A stretch of 21,107 bases of DNA from a virus: the IMG/VR virus record IMGVR_UViG_3300027797_000176, positions 1 through 21,107 of that record, one strand, 5' to 3'. Within the stretch, counting starts at the first letter, position 1; the number at the start of each line of letters is the position of its first letter. Under the pieces are notes generated by a model. The model was not told the origin of the DNA. It made no database searches and saw nothing but the letters and a program-made list of their open reading frames with translations. A program made the position numbers and the translations under genes. Below, piece after piece: positions 1,621 to 7,710 of this stretch.

Positions 1621-2823
1621 TTATTGCAAAGTTACTCCGTTCTTTTTGATTTCCAAAGCAGGGTCTAGTTTACGCATCCTATCCACAATAACTTGACAAT
1701 ACTTAGGGTCTAGTTCCATACCATAGCATTTGCGTTTAAGTTGGTGTGAAGCTACCATTGTTGTACCGGTTCCACAAAATTGGTCTAATATAATGTTTCC
1801 TTCTTTTGTGAATCGTAATGCCCATTCTGGAAGGTCTATTGGGAATGTTGCAGCGTGTACACTTGAAAACTCATTATTTCTATTAGGTTTGCCTCTATAT
1901 ATATTTGGAACAGTTCCTCTAAAATTTGCATTAGGAATTGCCCTTGATGCTTTATCTTTTGAAGATATAAAGAACATATATTCCCAAGCAGATGTCATTA
2001 CATTTTCAGCCATTGCAGGGGCTCCGTGTCCTTTATCCCATATTGCTACATCTATAAAATTGTCTTTATATTGATATAAATATTCAATTAATGCTATTTT
2101 GTTACCAGCTAAACTTTGAATATTGCAAATTAAATAATTACTATTTAACAATGCGTTATTTGTAAATCCTACTAATAAATCTAAATAATTATCTTTTGTT
2201 TGATTGTCATTATATTCATTGTATTTATTATCTATTGTATGAGTATTCCCACTTAATGCCTCACTTTTACCTGCATTATATGGTGGACTTGTAAATGATA
2301 AATCAGCCTTTTGTCCGTTCATTAGCTTTGCCACTTGGTCGCTATCTGTACTATCACCACATAGCAATCTATGTTCGCCTATTTCAAATAAATCTCCTAA
2401 GACTATATCTGTTTCAATGCCTCCCTCTGGAGTTGAAAAGTTATCTTCTTGTGCCTCTAATATTTCTGCATCAAAGTTTGGTATATCTAAACCCCATTCG
2501 GTTAGTTCTAGGGCATCCCAGTTATTTGCTAGGTCATCCCAGTCCCATTCGCCATAGCCTACATTATCCTTTACAATAAACTCTTTCTTTTTCTCCTCGC
2601 TTAGATTGTTTGCATGTATCACAGGCACATCGGTTAACCCAGCTTCAAGACAAGCCTTAAGCCTCATATTGCCACCTAAAACCATATTGTTCTCATCTAT
2701 TACAATAGGTCTAAGTTCTAGCATTTGGGGGAAATCTTGAATAGACTTTACAAGTTGCTTAAACTTATGGTCCTTACAAATTCTTGGGTTATTTGGATTT
2801 GCTTTAATTAAATTAATATTCAT
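1621..2823 (-). CDS. ParB-like nuclease domain fused to DNA methyltransferase
   Basis: A 400-residue fusion. The N-terminus (about 1-75) is a ParB/Srx-type fold: NPNNPR near residues 9-14 and the GNMRLKA box at 51-57, which corresponds to the ParB G-x-R-R motif. From about residue 140 there is a DNA methyltransferase of the N6-adenine/N4-cytosine class. It has the catalytic TSPPY at 178-182 and, later, the SAM-binding FCGTGTT at 349-355. The catalytic motif before the SAM motif is the beta-class order. ELDPKYC at 370-376 is the usual final strand. No restriction endonuclease is adjacent, so it is best read as an orphan phage methylase protecting or marking phage DNA. The start overlaps the end of the HNH gene by 11 bases. 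Substrate site and modified base are unknown. Confidence 0.9.
   Translation of the reverse strand: MNINLIKANPNNPRICKDHKFKQLVKSIQDFPQMLELRPIVIDENNMVLGGNMRLKACLEAGLTDVPVIHANNLSEEKKKEFIVKDNVGYGEWDWDDLANNWDALELTEWGLDIPNFDAEILEAQEDNFSTPEGGIETDIVLGDLFEIGEHRLLCGDSTDSDQVAKLMNGQKADLSFTSPPYNAGKSEALSGNTHTIDNKYNEYNDNQTKDNYLDLLVGFTNNALLNSNYLICNIQSLAGNKIALIEYLYQYKDNFIDVAIWDKGHGAPAMAENVMTSAWEYMFFISSKDKASRAIPNANFRGTVPNIYRGKPNRNNEFSSVHAATFPIDLPEWALRFTKEGNIILDQFCGTGTTMVASHQLKRKCYGMELDPKYCQVIVDRMRKLDPALEIKKNGVTLQ
1627..1657 (-). promoter_or_regulatory. Bacteroidota-type promoter for the terminase genes
   Basis: On the minus strand TTTG (1657-1654) is followed by 19 bases and then TAACTTTG (1634-1627). This fits the sigma-ABfr consensus TTTG-N19..21-TAnnTTTG at both boxes. 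The predicted transcript would start near 1620, about 20 bases before the ATG at 1599. The site overlaps the last codons of the methyltransferase gene, so it would give the packaging genes their own transcription start. Confidence 0.7.
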
Positions 2824-3328
2824 ATTGCCATTTATAATTTTGGACTAAATTAACCTCTCCTCTGCAACAAGAACAAATATTACCTCTATTAAATCCTGTT
2901 TGCCTTGATGCTTCGTGAGCAGATTCAAATATATTTATTACCTCGTTTGTTATAGAATTTAGTTGTTTTACTTTTTTTCTAGTTCTAACTGCTATATATT
3001 CAAAGTTAGGCTTATATAAACCATTTTTGAGTGCGTGTCTAGTATTTTCGCTTTTAGTTATAAACTCTAAATTTTCTAAAGCATTATTGCCTTTATTTCC
3101 GTCTTTATGGTTTACATCTAATTTTGATTCCCCTAACCAATTAAGAGCCACTAATCTATGAACTGTTTTTGTACTATGTTTACCATCTTTACAAAGAGTA
3201 ACTATTTTATAATTGCATTTATCAGTTGCAGCCTTTAAAATTCTATTAGTAATTAAACTTTTAATATTCCCTTTATTACCTGCTTGATACAAATTTTCGT
3301 ATCCTTTTATATCTTTAAATATTTCCAT
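2813..3328 (-). CDS. Free-standing HNH endonuclease with NUMOD domains
   Basis: A 171-residue homing-type endonuclease. Residues 1-48 match NUMOD4 (FKDIKGYENLYQ...NIKSL). Residues about 53-98 form an HNH_3 nuclease core: VHRLVALNW, then VNHKDGNKGNNALENLEF with the HNH-type histidine and asparagines. Residues about 118-168 look like a NUMOD1 DNA-binding module (VKQLNSITNEVINIFESAHEAS). There is no intron visible in either neighbour, so it appears to be a free-standing selfish gene placed between the 40-residue basic protein and the methyltransferase, whose start it overlaps. Proteins of this kind nick or cut DNA of related phages and promote their own spread. The cleavage site cannot be inferred. 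Confidence 0.88.
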   Translation of the reverse strand: MEIFKDIKGYENLYQAGNKGNIKSLITNRILKAATDKCNYKIVTLCKDGKHSTKTVHRLVALNWLGESKLDVNHKDGNKGNNALENLEFITKSENTRHALKNGLYKPNFEYIAVRTRKKVKQLNSITNEVINIFESAHEASRQTGFNRGNICSCCRGEVNLVQNYKWQYEY

Positions 3329-4351: not shown

Positions 4352-5046
4352 AGTTCGTTATCGTAATAAAGTTTAAGGGAATATTTTTTGCATTGTTGTC
4401 TCATAGTTTCCTCATCTACCATCATATCTTCTGGTTTCTTAGCCTGTGCCAAATGATAGGCTTTTACTTTTGATTTTATAAACTCAGCTTTCTCAGGAGT
4501 TATCTTTAGTAGCTTTCGCTTCCATAGGTAATCAAAGCATTGATAGTTTAAGAATCGCCAGTCTTTCTTAGATGTTTTCCAATACTCGGCTTCCTCTCTC
4601 ATTACTTGCTCTTCATCTACTTGCATAATTATTTCTTTAGGCTCTTCAATTGTTTTGTTTCTTACTTGTACTGCTATCTTTTTATAGGCATTCATTACCT
4701 CCCCAATTAACTTAGGACTAAAGTTTATATGATTGCCAATAGTAAACTTATCCTCTGCAAACATCTTAAATGCTACCCCCAGTTCTTTTAATTTGTATTG
4801 TCCGTAAGATTCTATTGTAAAAGAAACGCATAGATTGAATATTTGATTTGTTGGTACTTGCATCCCACTCAAAGCAATACAGGTCTTTAAATGCTCTGTA
4901 ACTTCTATTCTTGAGCATTTGCCAATGTGCATAGATTCCATTGCCTTATATACCTTTAACTCATCCCTATCCAAGATTTTTAAGTCGTTCCCATTCTCTT
5001 TCTGGATAACTAAGTTTTGCGTTATTTGTATAAGTTCCTGATTCAT
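4348..5046 (-). CDS. Hypothetical replication-operon protein
   Basis: A 232-residue soluble, helix-rich protein I cannot assign. It has no Walker motif and no obvious metal site. The C-terminal half is charged (EEAEYWKTSKKDWRFLNYQCFDYLWKRKLL), suggestive of a protein-protein or DNA-interaction surface. It lies directly after the replication-organizer-like gene, with which it overlaps by 80 bases if the ATG at 5046 is used. A start at 4941 (MESMHIGK) would remove the overlap. I keep 5046 because its leader is A-rich with a GAATCTAATG context similar to other starts in this operon. A helicase-loader role is possible by position only. Confidence 0.65.
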   Translation of the reverse strand: MNQELIQITQNLVIQKENGNDLKILDRDELKVYKAMESMHIGKCSRIEVTEHLKTCIALSGMQVPTNQIFNLCVSFTIESYGQYKLKELGVAFKMFAEDKFTIGNHINFSPKLIGEVMNAYKKIAVQVRNKTIEEPKEIIMQVDEEQVMREEAEYWKTSKKDWRFLNYQCFDYLWKRKLLKITPEKAEFIKSKVKAYHLAQAKKPEDMMVDEETMRQQCKKYSLKLYYDNEL

Positions 5047-5698
5047 TAGATTCGTTTTTTAGTTTAAATAATCCTTTCCATCCTTTAGCCATAGATTGCT
5101 CTATTATTTTAATGGCAGTTTCTTCATACCCATCTGATAAATTAACCAAATCATTTAATGCTGATTGTTCCGATTGAGCAGTCTTGAACTTGAAATTAAA
5201 TTGTTTATTCTTAAAATCCTTCCAAAATGTCCAATATTTTATAAAGTTTTCTGATTCAAAAGGTAGTATTACCATTTCCTTAACCTTATCCTTAACCATT
5301 ACCATATCCATAACCATATCCATAGCACCTTGCAAGGGGCTTTCAAGGGGCTTAAAGTTGGCAATTTCATCTTTGTACCTTTCTAAGTTTTTAATAATTC
5401 CGATATGTGCTTTGTTATTTTCGTTCAATCCAGAAGGATATTGGAACTCTATAAAAGAAGGAATAAACCATTTAGCACCATTATCTAAAGGAATGATTTT
5501 ATCTCCAAAAAGTTCAATGGCTTTTTTACCATCTAATTTTTCGCCTATCCTAATTTCAGCAACTTCTATATCAACTTGCCATATCCCTGAATGGTCGCAG
5601 TCATCACATACATATAACCAGAGTAGTTTGTATGATGCTTTTAAATTCCTAATGAATGGTTTTTTCCATTTTTCTGTATCCGTAAATCTCTTAGCCAT
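4967..5698 (-). CDS. Replication-organizer-like protein (DnaD/winged-helix type)
   Basis: A 243-residue protein. Residues 1-100 (RFTDTEKWKKPFIRNL, then YKLLWLYVCDDCDHSGIW and a 'W F I P S F I E F Q Y' stretch) match the N-terminal winged-helix domain common in phage replication organizers. A repetitive Met/Asp/Val hinge follows, and a C-terminal helical domain begins near 'FIKYWTFWKDF', reminiscent of DnaD-like domains that contact helicase or ssDNA. I chose the ATG at 5698 over the in-frame ATG at 5716, because the codons between them are the U-run of a terminator-like leader. The function as replication initiator or helicase recruiter is inferred from family and from neighbours (erf, DnaA domain IV). 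Confidence 0.7.
   Translation of the reverse strand: MAKRFTDTEKWKKPFIRNLKASYKLLWLYVCDDCDHSGIWQVDIEVAEIRIGEKLDGKKAIELFGDKIIPLDNGAKWFIPSFIEFQYPSGLNENNKAHIGIIKNLERYKDEIANFKPLESPLQGAMDMVMDMVMVKDKVKEMVILPFESENFIKYWTFWKDFKNKQFNFKFKTAQSEQSALNDLVNLSDGYEETAIKIIEQSMAKGWKGLFKLKNESNESGTYTNNAKLSYPEREWERLKNLG
5270..5323 (-). repeat. Nine in-frame degenerate hexanucleotide repeats
   Basis: On the minus strand nine consecutive six-base units follow the pattern A[TA]GG[TA][TA], for example ATGGAT, ATGGTT, AAGGAT. They encode the hinge between the two domains of the replication protein (alternating M/K with D/V/E). Because the unit is six bases, gain or loss of units changes hinge length without shifting the frame. 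Confidence 0.8.
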
Positions 5699-5700
5699 AA

Positions 5701-5787
5701 AATAAAAAAGCCCCATTGAATCCCTACCAGTCGTTTTGGTAGTTCATCGCAAGGGCAATAAGTTCTTAATAGGATAAACGACATCCT
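5701..5787 (-). ncRNA. Structured leader/small RNA with complementary hairpin loops and terminator-like end
   Basis: Read on the minus strand, hairpin A is AGGAT-GTCGTTT-ATCCT (5787-5771; 5 bp stem, 7-base loop). Hairpin B is CTACCA-AAACGAC-TGGTAG (5742-5724; 6 bp stem, 7-base loop). The two loops are exact reverse complements, so they could form a 7 bp kissing complex. Outside hairpin B, GCCCTTG (5756-5750) can pair with CAA..GGGC (5718-5710) with a two-base bulge. CTTTTTTATT follows at once, which has the form of an intrinsic terminator. The element fills the gap between the HTH gene and the replication-organizer ATG at 5698. It begins about five bases after a TATCTTTG -7 box. It could be an attenuator of the downstream gene or a discrete small RNA of about 85 nt. 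No known RNA family is recognised. Confidence 0.6.
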
Positions 5788-5791
5788 GTTA

Positions 5792-5799
5792 CAAAGATA
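5792..5799 (-). promoter_or_regulatory. Probable -7 box upstream of the leader RNA
   Basis: TATCTTTG on the minus strand matches TAnnTTTG exactly and lies three bases past the stop of the HTH gene. A transcript from it would begin at about 5787, the first base of hairpin A. No TTTG is found 19-21 bases upstream, so the -33 element is weak or absent and the call is tentative. Confidence 0.45.
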
Positions 5800-5801
5800 A
5801 G

Positions 5802-5996
5802 CTATTTTAATGAATATTGGGCTATCTGCTTTTTATTCTCTAGTTTGATAATCTTTGTTTTTATATTCATTCCATCATTCCTTAAATCGTTTATTCGTGA
5901 TGCTAATCTAAAGCATCCAAATTTAGTTAAGGCATCAAGAGTAGTTAGCTTTTTACCTTTGTTTAGGTAGTCTGCTATTTGTTTGTTTTGGCTCAT
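5802..5996 (-). CDS. Small helix-turn-helix protein (HTH_39-like)
   Basis: The 64-residue protein fits the HTH_39 type seen in many phages. There is a first helix NKQIADYLNKGKK, the phrase LTTLDALTKFGCFRLASRI in the turn and recognition region, then NDLRNDGMNIKTKII as wing. The family is thought to bind DNA and act as a small regulator; a direct target cannot be read. It sits just upstream of the structured leader and the replication gene, so it may regulate that segment. The C-terminal KKQIAQYSLK is the expected final strand. Confidence 0.75.
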   Translation of the reverse strand: MSQNKQIADYLNKGKKLTTLDALTKFGCFRLASRINDLRNDGMNIKTKIIKLENKKQIAQYSLK

Positions 5997-7259: not shown

Positions 7260-7547
7260 TTATATTAATCTTTTTATTTTGTTTAATTCATCCTTTAAAT
7301 CTGTATCGTAATGCAAGTCTAAAGTGTTTTGTATAGTCTTTAACGAATGGATTATTGTAGTGTGGTCTCTGCCTACCATATCTGCAATTGCCTTTAATGT
7401 TAAAGTTGTGTTATTTTTTATACAATACATTGCTATAAATCTAGCTTTAACAAAATGCCTTTTTCTGCTTTTGCCTTTTATGTCCTTAGGTAGTATCTTA
7501 TAATATTCTGCAATCTTATCTATAATTGTTTCAGAATACCTTATCAT
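7260..7547 (-). CDS. Standalone DnaA domain IV-like DNA-binding protein
   Basis: About 95 residues corresponding to only the C-terminal domain of DnaA. The signature ADMVGRDHTTIIHSLKTI near residues 55-72 is the DnaA box-binding helix-turn-helix (canonical GRDHTTV). The preceding KSRKRHFVKARFIAMYCIK is the basic loop and first helix. The AAA+ ATPase domain is absent. I chose the ATG at 7547 (17-base overlap with the upstream gene) over the in-frame ATG at 7601. A protein like this could compete with host DnaA at boxes, repress host initiation, or mark the phage origin. Two TTATTCACA sites lie downstream, the first in the adjoining leader, which suggests self-contained regulation. Confidence 0.85.
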   Translation of the reverse strand: MIRYSETIIDKIAEYYKILPKDIKGKSRKRHFVKARFIAMYCIKNNTTLTLKAIADMVGRDHTTIIHSLKTIQNTLDLHYDTDLKDELNKIKRLI

Positions 7548-7710
7548 TTCCTTCGTTGTCAGTCTGCTCTCCTTTTGACTTGGTATTGCCCAGTAGTTCA
7601 TTCTTTTCTATTTTAAGTTTTATAATTTGGTTTCTTAGCATCTCATTTTCTACTTCTAAAATGTAGATTTCTCTTTGCAATTGGAACTTGCTATTGTCTA
7701 TATATGTCAT
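7531..7710 (-). CDS. Small coiled-coil protein
   Basis: A 59-residue protein beginning MTYIDNSKFQLQREI. Residues about 8-38 form a heptad-like coiled coil (LQREIYILEVENEMLRNQIIKLKIEKNELL), followed by a polar tail. An in-frame ATG at 7770 exists, but its first 20 codons lie within the preceding gene and are hydrophobic and atypical, so I prefer 7710, one base after that gene's stop. It may dimerise or partner with the DnaA-like protein encoded just downstream. Confidence 0.6.
   Translation of the reverse strand: MTYIDNSKFQLQREIYILEVENEMLRNQIIKLKIEKNELLGNTKSKGEQTDNEGNDKVF

Follow-up and report, generated by a model that had tools for sequence, protein, structure and literature searches.

Introduction

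Kissing contacts between RNA loops have a place in replication control, as in plasmid ColE1, where RNA I and RNA II meet through a contact of ~7 bp and the loops can change together. The ColE1 partners, however, are two RNAs transcribed from opposite strands, whereas in the phage leader described here both loops belong to one RNA with selection acting on one strand, and in all the groups of leaders found each loop covaries with a partner on its own transcript and not on a separate antisense RNA, although a further antisense RNA is conceivable. Attenuators that use intrinsic terminators in 5' leaders, among them those of plasmid rep attenuation, resemble the phage leader in placing a terminator (here a terminator-like hairpin) immediately ahead of the first gene in a replication or other operon; the known ones switch by alternative pairing or in response to a ligand, a peptide, an antisense RNA or a protein, and we know of no attenuator whose terminator is tied to a 5' hairpin via a loop-loop contact.

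Two further systems come close in other respects. In the purine riboswitch (PMC4464220), two loops of one RNA kiss upstream of the expression platform, much as here, but they do so around a three-way junction with a ligand pocket, whereas no junction surrounds the two hairpins of the phage leader and the second of these is the putative terminator itself. The put RNAs of phage HK022 (putL and putR) are phage RNAs of ~70 nt with two stem-loops, putL lying just after an early promoter and governing the passage of RNA polymerase (PMC9378689). The leader shares this anatomy (length of ~70 nt, two stem-loops, proximity to an early promoter); the put text searched, however, names no kissing contact, put is not itself a terminator, and no sequence relation between the two was seen.

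Results

The leader in the window

The window analysed is the whole 21,107-base virus record IMGVR_UViG_3300027797_000176 (positions 1-21,107). An earlier note, made from its sequence alone, had described two hairpins 28 bases apart with complementary 7-base loops, a -7 box just 5' of the first, and a stem enclosing the second, followed by a U-run before an ATG, and each of these parts was found again on the minus strand (Table 1). In minus-strand order, the stop codon of an HTH_39 gene is followed by the box, hairpin A, the linker, hairpin B, six U residues and the ATG, so ordered that hairpin A forms the predicted 5' end of the RNA or lies a few nt from it, its loop being the exact complement of that of hairpin B. 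Pseudoknot-free folding of the leader RNA recovers precisely these two hairpins, the nested part reaching -23.2 kcal/mol (z -2.5; 4 of 200 shuffles equally low), and in a scan of the window under the criteria used they are the sole hairpin pair with a 7-nt loop match, at least one such pair occurring in 2 of 100 dinucleotide-shuffled windows.

Table 1. Coordinates of the leader, its parts, neighbouring genes and further leader copies
Feature	Location	Strand	Sequence or basis
-7 promoter box, type TAnnTTTG	window 5792..5799	minus	TATCTTTG; read from sequence
Hairpin A	window 5771..5787	minus	stem 5787-5783 / 5775-5771 (AGGAU/AUCCU), loop GUCGUUU 5782-5776; sequence and folding
Linker, 14 nt, A/U-rich	window 5757..5770	minus	AUUAAGAACUUAUU; alignments A3/A4
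Hairpin B, terminator-like	window 5710..5756	minus	loop AAACGAC 5736-5730; sequence and folding
Hairpin B outer stem	window 5756-5752 / 5714-5710	minus	GCCCU/GGGGC
Hairpin B 2-bp step	window 5748-5747 / 5719-5718	minus	GA/UC
Hairpin B internal loop	between 2-bp step and inner stem	minus	UGAA/GGAU
Hairpin B inner stem	window 5742-5737 / 5729-5724	minus	CUACCA/UGGUAG
U-tract, immediately 3' of hairpin B	window 5704..5709	minus	UUUUUU
ATG of downstream gene	window 5698	minus	
O-like replication initiation protein, 243 aa	window 4967..5698 (stop codon counted)	minus	phrog_678, phrog_18589
HTH_39 winged-helix protein, gene end just before promoter	window 5802..5996	minus	PF14090, E 3e-15
Extra leader before HNH/NUMOD-like endonuclease gene	L198 8101-8191	minus	
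Extra leader before HNH/NUMOD-like endonuclease gene	L201 7441-7531	plus	
Extra leader before HNH/NUMOD-like endonuclease gene	L355 (G019) 1356-1445	minus	
Extra leaders before HNH/NUMOD-like endonuclease genes	L357, L358		
Two leaders with different loop pairs in one cluster	L281 1960-2048 and ~3200-3290		before ABC-type ATPase gene; before initiator

The downstream protein matches phrog_678 ("replication initiation O-like", E 9e-4) and phrog_18589 (E 5e-7). Elsewhere on the minus strand of the window, a small protein matching the DnaA C-terminal DNA-binding domain (7263-7601; PF08299, E 6e-23) is encoded near an Erf annealing protein gene, and a NUMOD4/HNH homing endonuclease gene (2816-3328) lies between a NinG-like gene and one whose product combines ParB-like with DNA methylase domains.

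Covariation of the loops

The start set consisted of 80 IMG/VR relatives of the downstream protein, and two pattern scans built on the linker and stems, with the loops left out, matched at least 119 and at least 120 contigs; among the matches listed, 154 of the 155 distinct elements of the window's architecture (group A) that were parsed had complementary loops of 7-9 nt, the single exception (L241) having lost hairpin A and the promoter through a deletion or fusion. The surrounding genes being kept with loop complementarity lost, which the earlier note had named as speaking against its proposal, is not the pattern seen: relatives carrying the RNA differ in their loop letters and keep complementarity via paired changes, down to a contig (L009) whose protein is 99% identical to the window's and whose loops, GUCGGAU/AUCCGAC, are two paired changes away. 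The covariance model used for search and alignment, built without the kissing pairs, brought in more distant copies with the loops GUACGAG/CUCGUAC, GUACCAG/CUGGUAC, AUGCGAC/GUCGCAU and GUGAGAU/AUCUCAC, and of the 13 loop pairs in the aligned set 12 are fully complementary, the remaining one (L140) matching at 7/8.

Over the 64 distinct aligned sequences, 97.1% of the stem and kissing cells are standard-paired versus 74.6% in shuffles, and 337 cells versus 98.5 show double-sided changes, comparisons that kinship among the sequences can inflate; the covariation of the loops, for which the earlier note had proposed a test in related phages, is nevertheless present by every measure, none of which was matched in any of the 500 shuffles, and shifting the partners along abolishes the signal. 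Double-sided changes occur in 22 of the 24 pairs overall and in 6 of the 7 kissing pairs, at every pair of helices 3, 4 and 5 (hairpin B), and in 3 of the 4 pairs of the hairpin A stem (helix 1; 99.6% paired). The unpaired kissing cells in the covariation table are 8-nt loops displaced by the alignment, and in the 7-nt kissing helix all 406 of 406 cells are Watson-Crick. On these alignments, a dozen distinct loop pairs demand many independent paired changes, the kinship effect notwithstanding, and both the hairpins and the loop-loop pairing are under selection, the decisive evidence being evolutionary. A chance loop match is ruled out by the covariation, here and in the second group of leaders (group B) described below. 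As to the linker, the motif AACUUAUU is almost invariant in group A (alignments A3/A4), and the conservation of AACTTATT, which belonged to the search patterns, is in part a product of the search itself; most of the divergent copies recovered with the covariance model retain it.

The stems contain 59 G-U cells and no A-C cells, which indicates that the structure is selected as an RNA of the minus strand and rules out a DNA structure or a structure of the opposite strand. The same imbalance makes it scarcely credible that the hairpins serve as a replication origin, acting as DNA or as primer RNA beside the initiator gene, a reading that the near-constant presence of a replication initiator after the leader would fit, but one that the extra copies before endonuclease genes elsewhere in the genome also contradict.

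Promoter box and terminator-like end

Of the 153 group A elements checked, 152 have a TAnnTT(T/C)G box ending 1-4 nt ahead of the modelled RNA, and 72 of 72 in group B have one upstream, against ~1% of random 16-nt windows; boxes of the TAnnTTTG type we take to be the Bacteroidota kind of promoter. Across 749 other start regions in the same contigs A is dominant and T-runs of at least 5 occur in 9, whereas next to the leader stem there are T-runs and hardly any A. Taken together, the type of promoter box and the prevalence of A at gene starts suggest that the hosts of these phages are probably Bacteroidota; a search with the chaperone-type tail protein gave only distant tail fibre matches from mixed hosts.

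Since the start regions elsewhere in the contigs are A-rich, the U-tract of the leader is not the usual start region. In 95 of 95 distinct group A leaders a G+C-rich hairpin runs straight into a U-tract, as expected of an intrinsic terminator, with a T-run of at least 4 beginning 0-2 nt after the stem. Of the regulated terminator proposed earlier, the terminator-like sequence thus stands, its regulation being part of the model discussed below. Termination in group A could be weak, because the outer stem is short (5 bp) and hairpin B is broken by internal loops; some of the U-tracts are also interrupted (GCACUUUU, GCUAUUUU). A by-eye search of alignments A3/A4 for a conserved antiterminator pairing gave only weak, non-conserved alternatives (e.g., UUGGC/GCCGA, in one subclass).

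The U-tract also bears on the idea that the RNA is a protective or translational leader, i.e., a compact 5' cap against mRNA decay or a device for positioning the ribosome, with the U-tract merely A/U-rich. Such a role, suggested by the place of hairpin A at the predicted 5' end and by an ATG spacing that is nearly constant across unrelated genes, seems unlikely to us, if worth keeping in view, as T-runs with almost no A beside the stem, where other starts are A-rich, fit a terminator better, and a stable stem ending ~11 nt before the AUG should impede ribosome binding.

Terminator-like sequences were also seen in other places. In the window, the minus strand of 9045-8640 has a terminator-like hairpin, a -7-like box and a ~60-nt stretch closing in a second terminator-like hairpin, followed by ~300 nt that contain inverted repeats GTTATAAC but no ORF of 50 aa; no kissing loops were seen in this region, which is possibly a control or origin region. 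A weak second match in L151/L155 proved to be a terminator of the ordinary kind ahead of an ATG, with no kissing loops.

Genomic setting and distribution

At the threshold used, 44 of the 50 longer records carry a group A leader, nearly all in single copy, and two records with the leader at both ends suggest circularity. In most of 150 elements, 9-14 nt separate the upstream stop codon from the RNA. The leader is retained while the genes flanking it on both sides vary: a replication initiator nearly always follows it, with N-terminal types that include HTH_36, DnaD-like, DUF1376-like and Lin1244-like, and in some contigs a further gene is inserted between leader and initiator, its ATG at the usual distance and the initiator after it. 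These inserted genes encode a 118-aa endonuclease-like (GIY-YIG-like) protein, methyltransferase-like proteins (MKVLIAC and MEINKIY starts) and an ABC-type ATPase, names that rest partly on a reading of their sequences. The AUG comes 10-13 nt after the stem, with a near-constant spacing. The proposal of a kissing-loop RNA ahead of the replication gene is strongly supported; the RNA is not specific to one replication protein, as it also precedes endonuclease, methyltransferase and ATPase genes. Distant relatives of the downstream gene (L059, L062, L065 and L076) have no such RNA.

Some genomes carry extra leaders before HNH/NUMOD-like endonuclease genes (Table 1), with a -7 box and self-complementary loops of their own, and in L198, L201, L355 (G019), L357 and L358 the loop pair of the extra leader differs from that of the replication-gene copy. 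This distribution speaks to whether the element might be the gene of a free, stable, trans-acting RNA of ~80 nt, near which the next gene starts by coincidence. Although its own promoter box and terminator-like end delimit a complete small transcription unit, we hold this to be decidedly improbable, given that the ATG spacing is kept for unrelated inserted genes, that second copies again stand directly before genes, and that the loops change freely provided that the two still match, a freedom unsuited to a fixed external target.

Other architectures in the same place

Other relatives have, in the same place, a leader of a second kind (group B), made of an 8-bp hairpin (ACACAUUA/UAAUGUGU) with a long loop, the linker UUUAGUGGUUAAAUAAU, which served as the search pattern, and a terminator-like hairpin whose 12-bp stem appears strong by itself. 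A complementary stretch of 7-8 nt, in six loop types, is found in 70 of the 72 distinct group B leaders; the two exceptions (L401 and L471) have one mismatch in the kissing stretch and are apparently recombinants of two loop types, i.e., natural single mutants. For a third kind (group C), with an extra small hairpin in between, a first pattern gave no matches and a looser one five contigs, with the loops GUGGAU/AUCCAC or AGGGAAG/CUUCCCU (two types, few examples). Common to the three groups are the 5' hairpin, the terminator-like hairpin with its U-tract before the ATG and the complementary loops, the -7 box having been checked in groups A and B; the UGAA/GGAU and linker motifs conserved in group A are absent from groups B and C.

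This comparison weighs on a possible put-like role, in which the RNA would stay on RNA polymerase and carry it past its own or later terminators. The outline is similar (~70-90 nt with two stem-loops, immediately 3' of a promoter), and put RNA acts alone on the polymerase (PMC9378689), just as no gene for a dedicated trans-acting factor adjoins the leader, whose upstream genes are variable. Against it stand the kissing contact, of which the put text searched has none, the ending of the phage leader in a terminator-like stem and U-tract, and the existence of three architectures that share no common surface besides the kissing pair, all of which leads us to consider antitermination of the put kind quite unlikely.

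Search for earlier descriptions

With the window and 12 related loci as queries, Rfam 15 returned no family at or above its gathering threshold, a CRISPR-DR16 match (E 2.6) being taken as chance. A blastn search of cultured phages with six variants gave only chance-level matches, several of them to terminators; in Pseudanabaena phage Pan5 a relative of the downstream gene is present and the RNA absent. A strict pattern search of bacterial genomes found one match, in a Lactobacillus MAG, judged to be chance. Literature text searches, mostly outside subscription papers, turned up no description, an earlier one being possible. The kissing-loop leader is, it seems, an undescribed RNA family.

Discussion

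The reading that we favour, with modest confidence and on the pattern of conservation, is that the leader acts as a promoter-proximal attenuator of transcription for the phage replication operon, with a kissing contact of 7-8 bp tying the terminator hairpin to a 5' hairpin. Against this reading weigh, besides the features of group A that could make termination weak, the lack of a conserved antiterminator pairing in the by-eye search, the variable upstream genes, among which no dedicated trans-acting factor is encoded, and in group B a terminator stem that already looks strong alone. RNA polymerase would begin at the -7 box, and hairpin A, at the 5' end of the RNA, would fold first; the inner stem-loop of hairpin B would then emerge and its loop kiss that of hairpin A through seven Watson-Crick pairs, with the 3' arm of the terminator stem still to be transcribed. 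Should the outer stem close beside the U-tract, transcription would end just before the ATG; should it fail to close, the polymerase would enter the replication gene, so that the kissing contact would set the balance between a terminated RNA of ~80 nt and expression of the first gene. With ~14 nt of RNA covered by RNA polymerase, loop pairing can precede the emergence of the outer stem's 3' arm. If the kissing helix and the stems form one continuous stack, the 14-nt linker would have to span ~30 base-pair steps, which is near its limit, and a coupling between kissing and outer-stem closure is for this reason likely, be it as help or as hindrance. Termination itself, the effect of the kissing contact on it, and the direction and signal of that effect are what we infer from this arrangement.

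A rather unlikely elaboration would make the leader a sensor of dosage: terminated leaders from many phage genomes would pair in trans with nascent ones, their concentration setting the level of termination. If true, this would amount to ColE1-like copy-number control by a single self-complementary sense RNA, and loop changes would sort co-infecting phages into compatibility groups. Where a genome has two copies, their loop pairs do differ, though those copies also come from different subfamilies.

Conclusions

The leader represents an RNA family in which a long kissing contact links the 5' hairpin of a transcript to a terminator-like hairpin further along the same molecule. Paired changes have maintained this contact in hundreds of phage contigs from the environment, and it is built in at least three architectures. 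The leader offers a compact, modular terminator candidate for the study of co-transcriptional tertiary folding, and its natural loop swaps are ready-made compensatory mutants, which makes direct testing possible. If it is indeed an attenuator, it would mean that phages of what are probably Bacteroidota hosts control their replication at the level of RNA.
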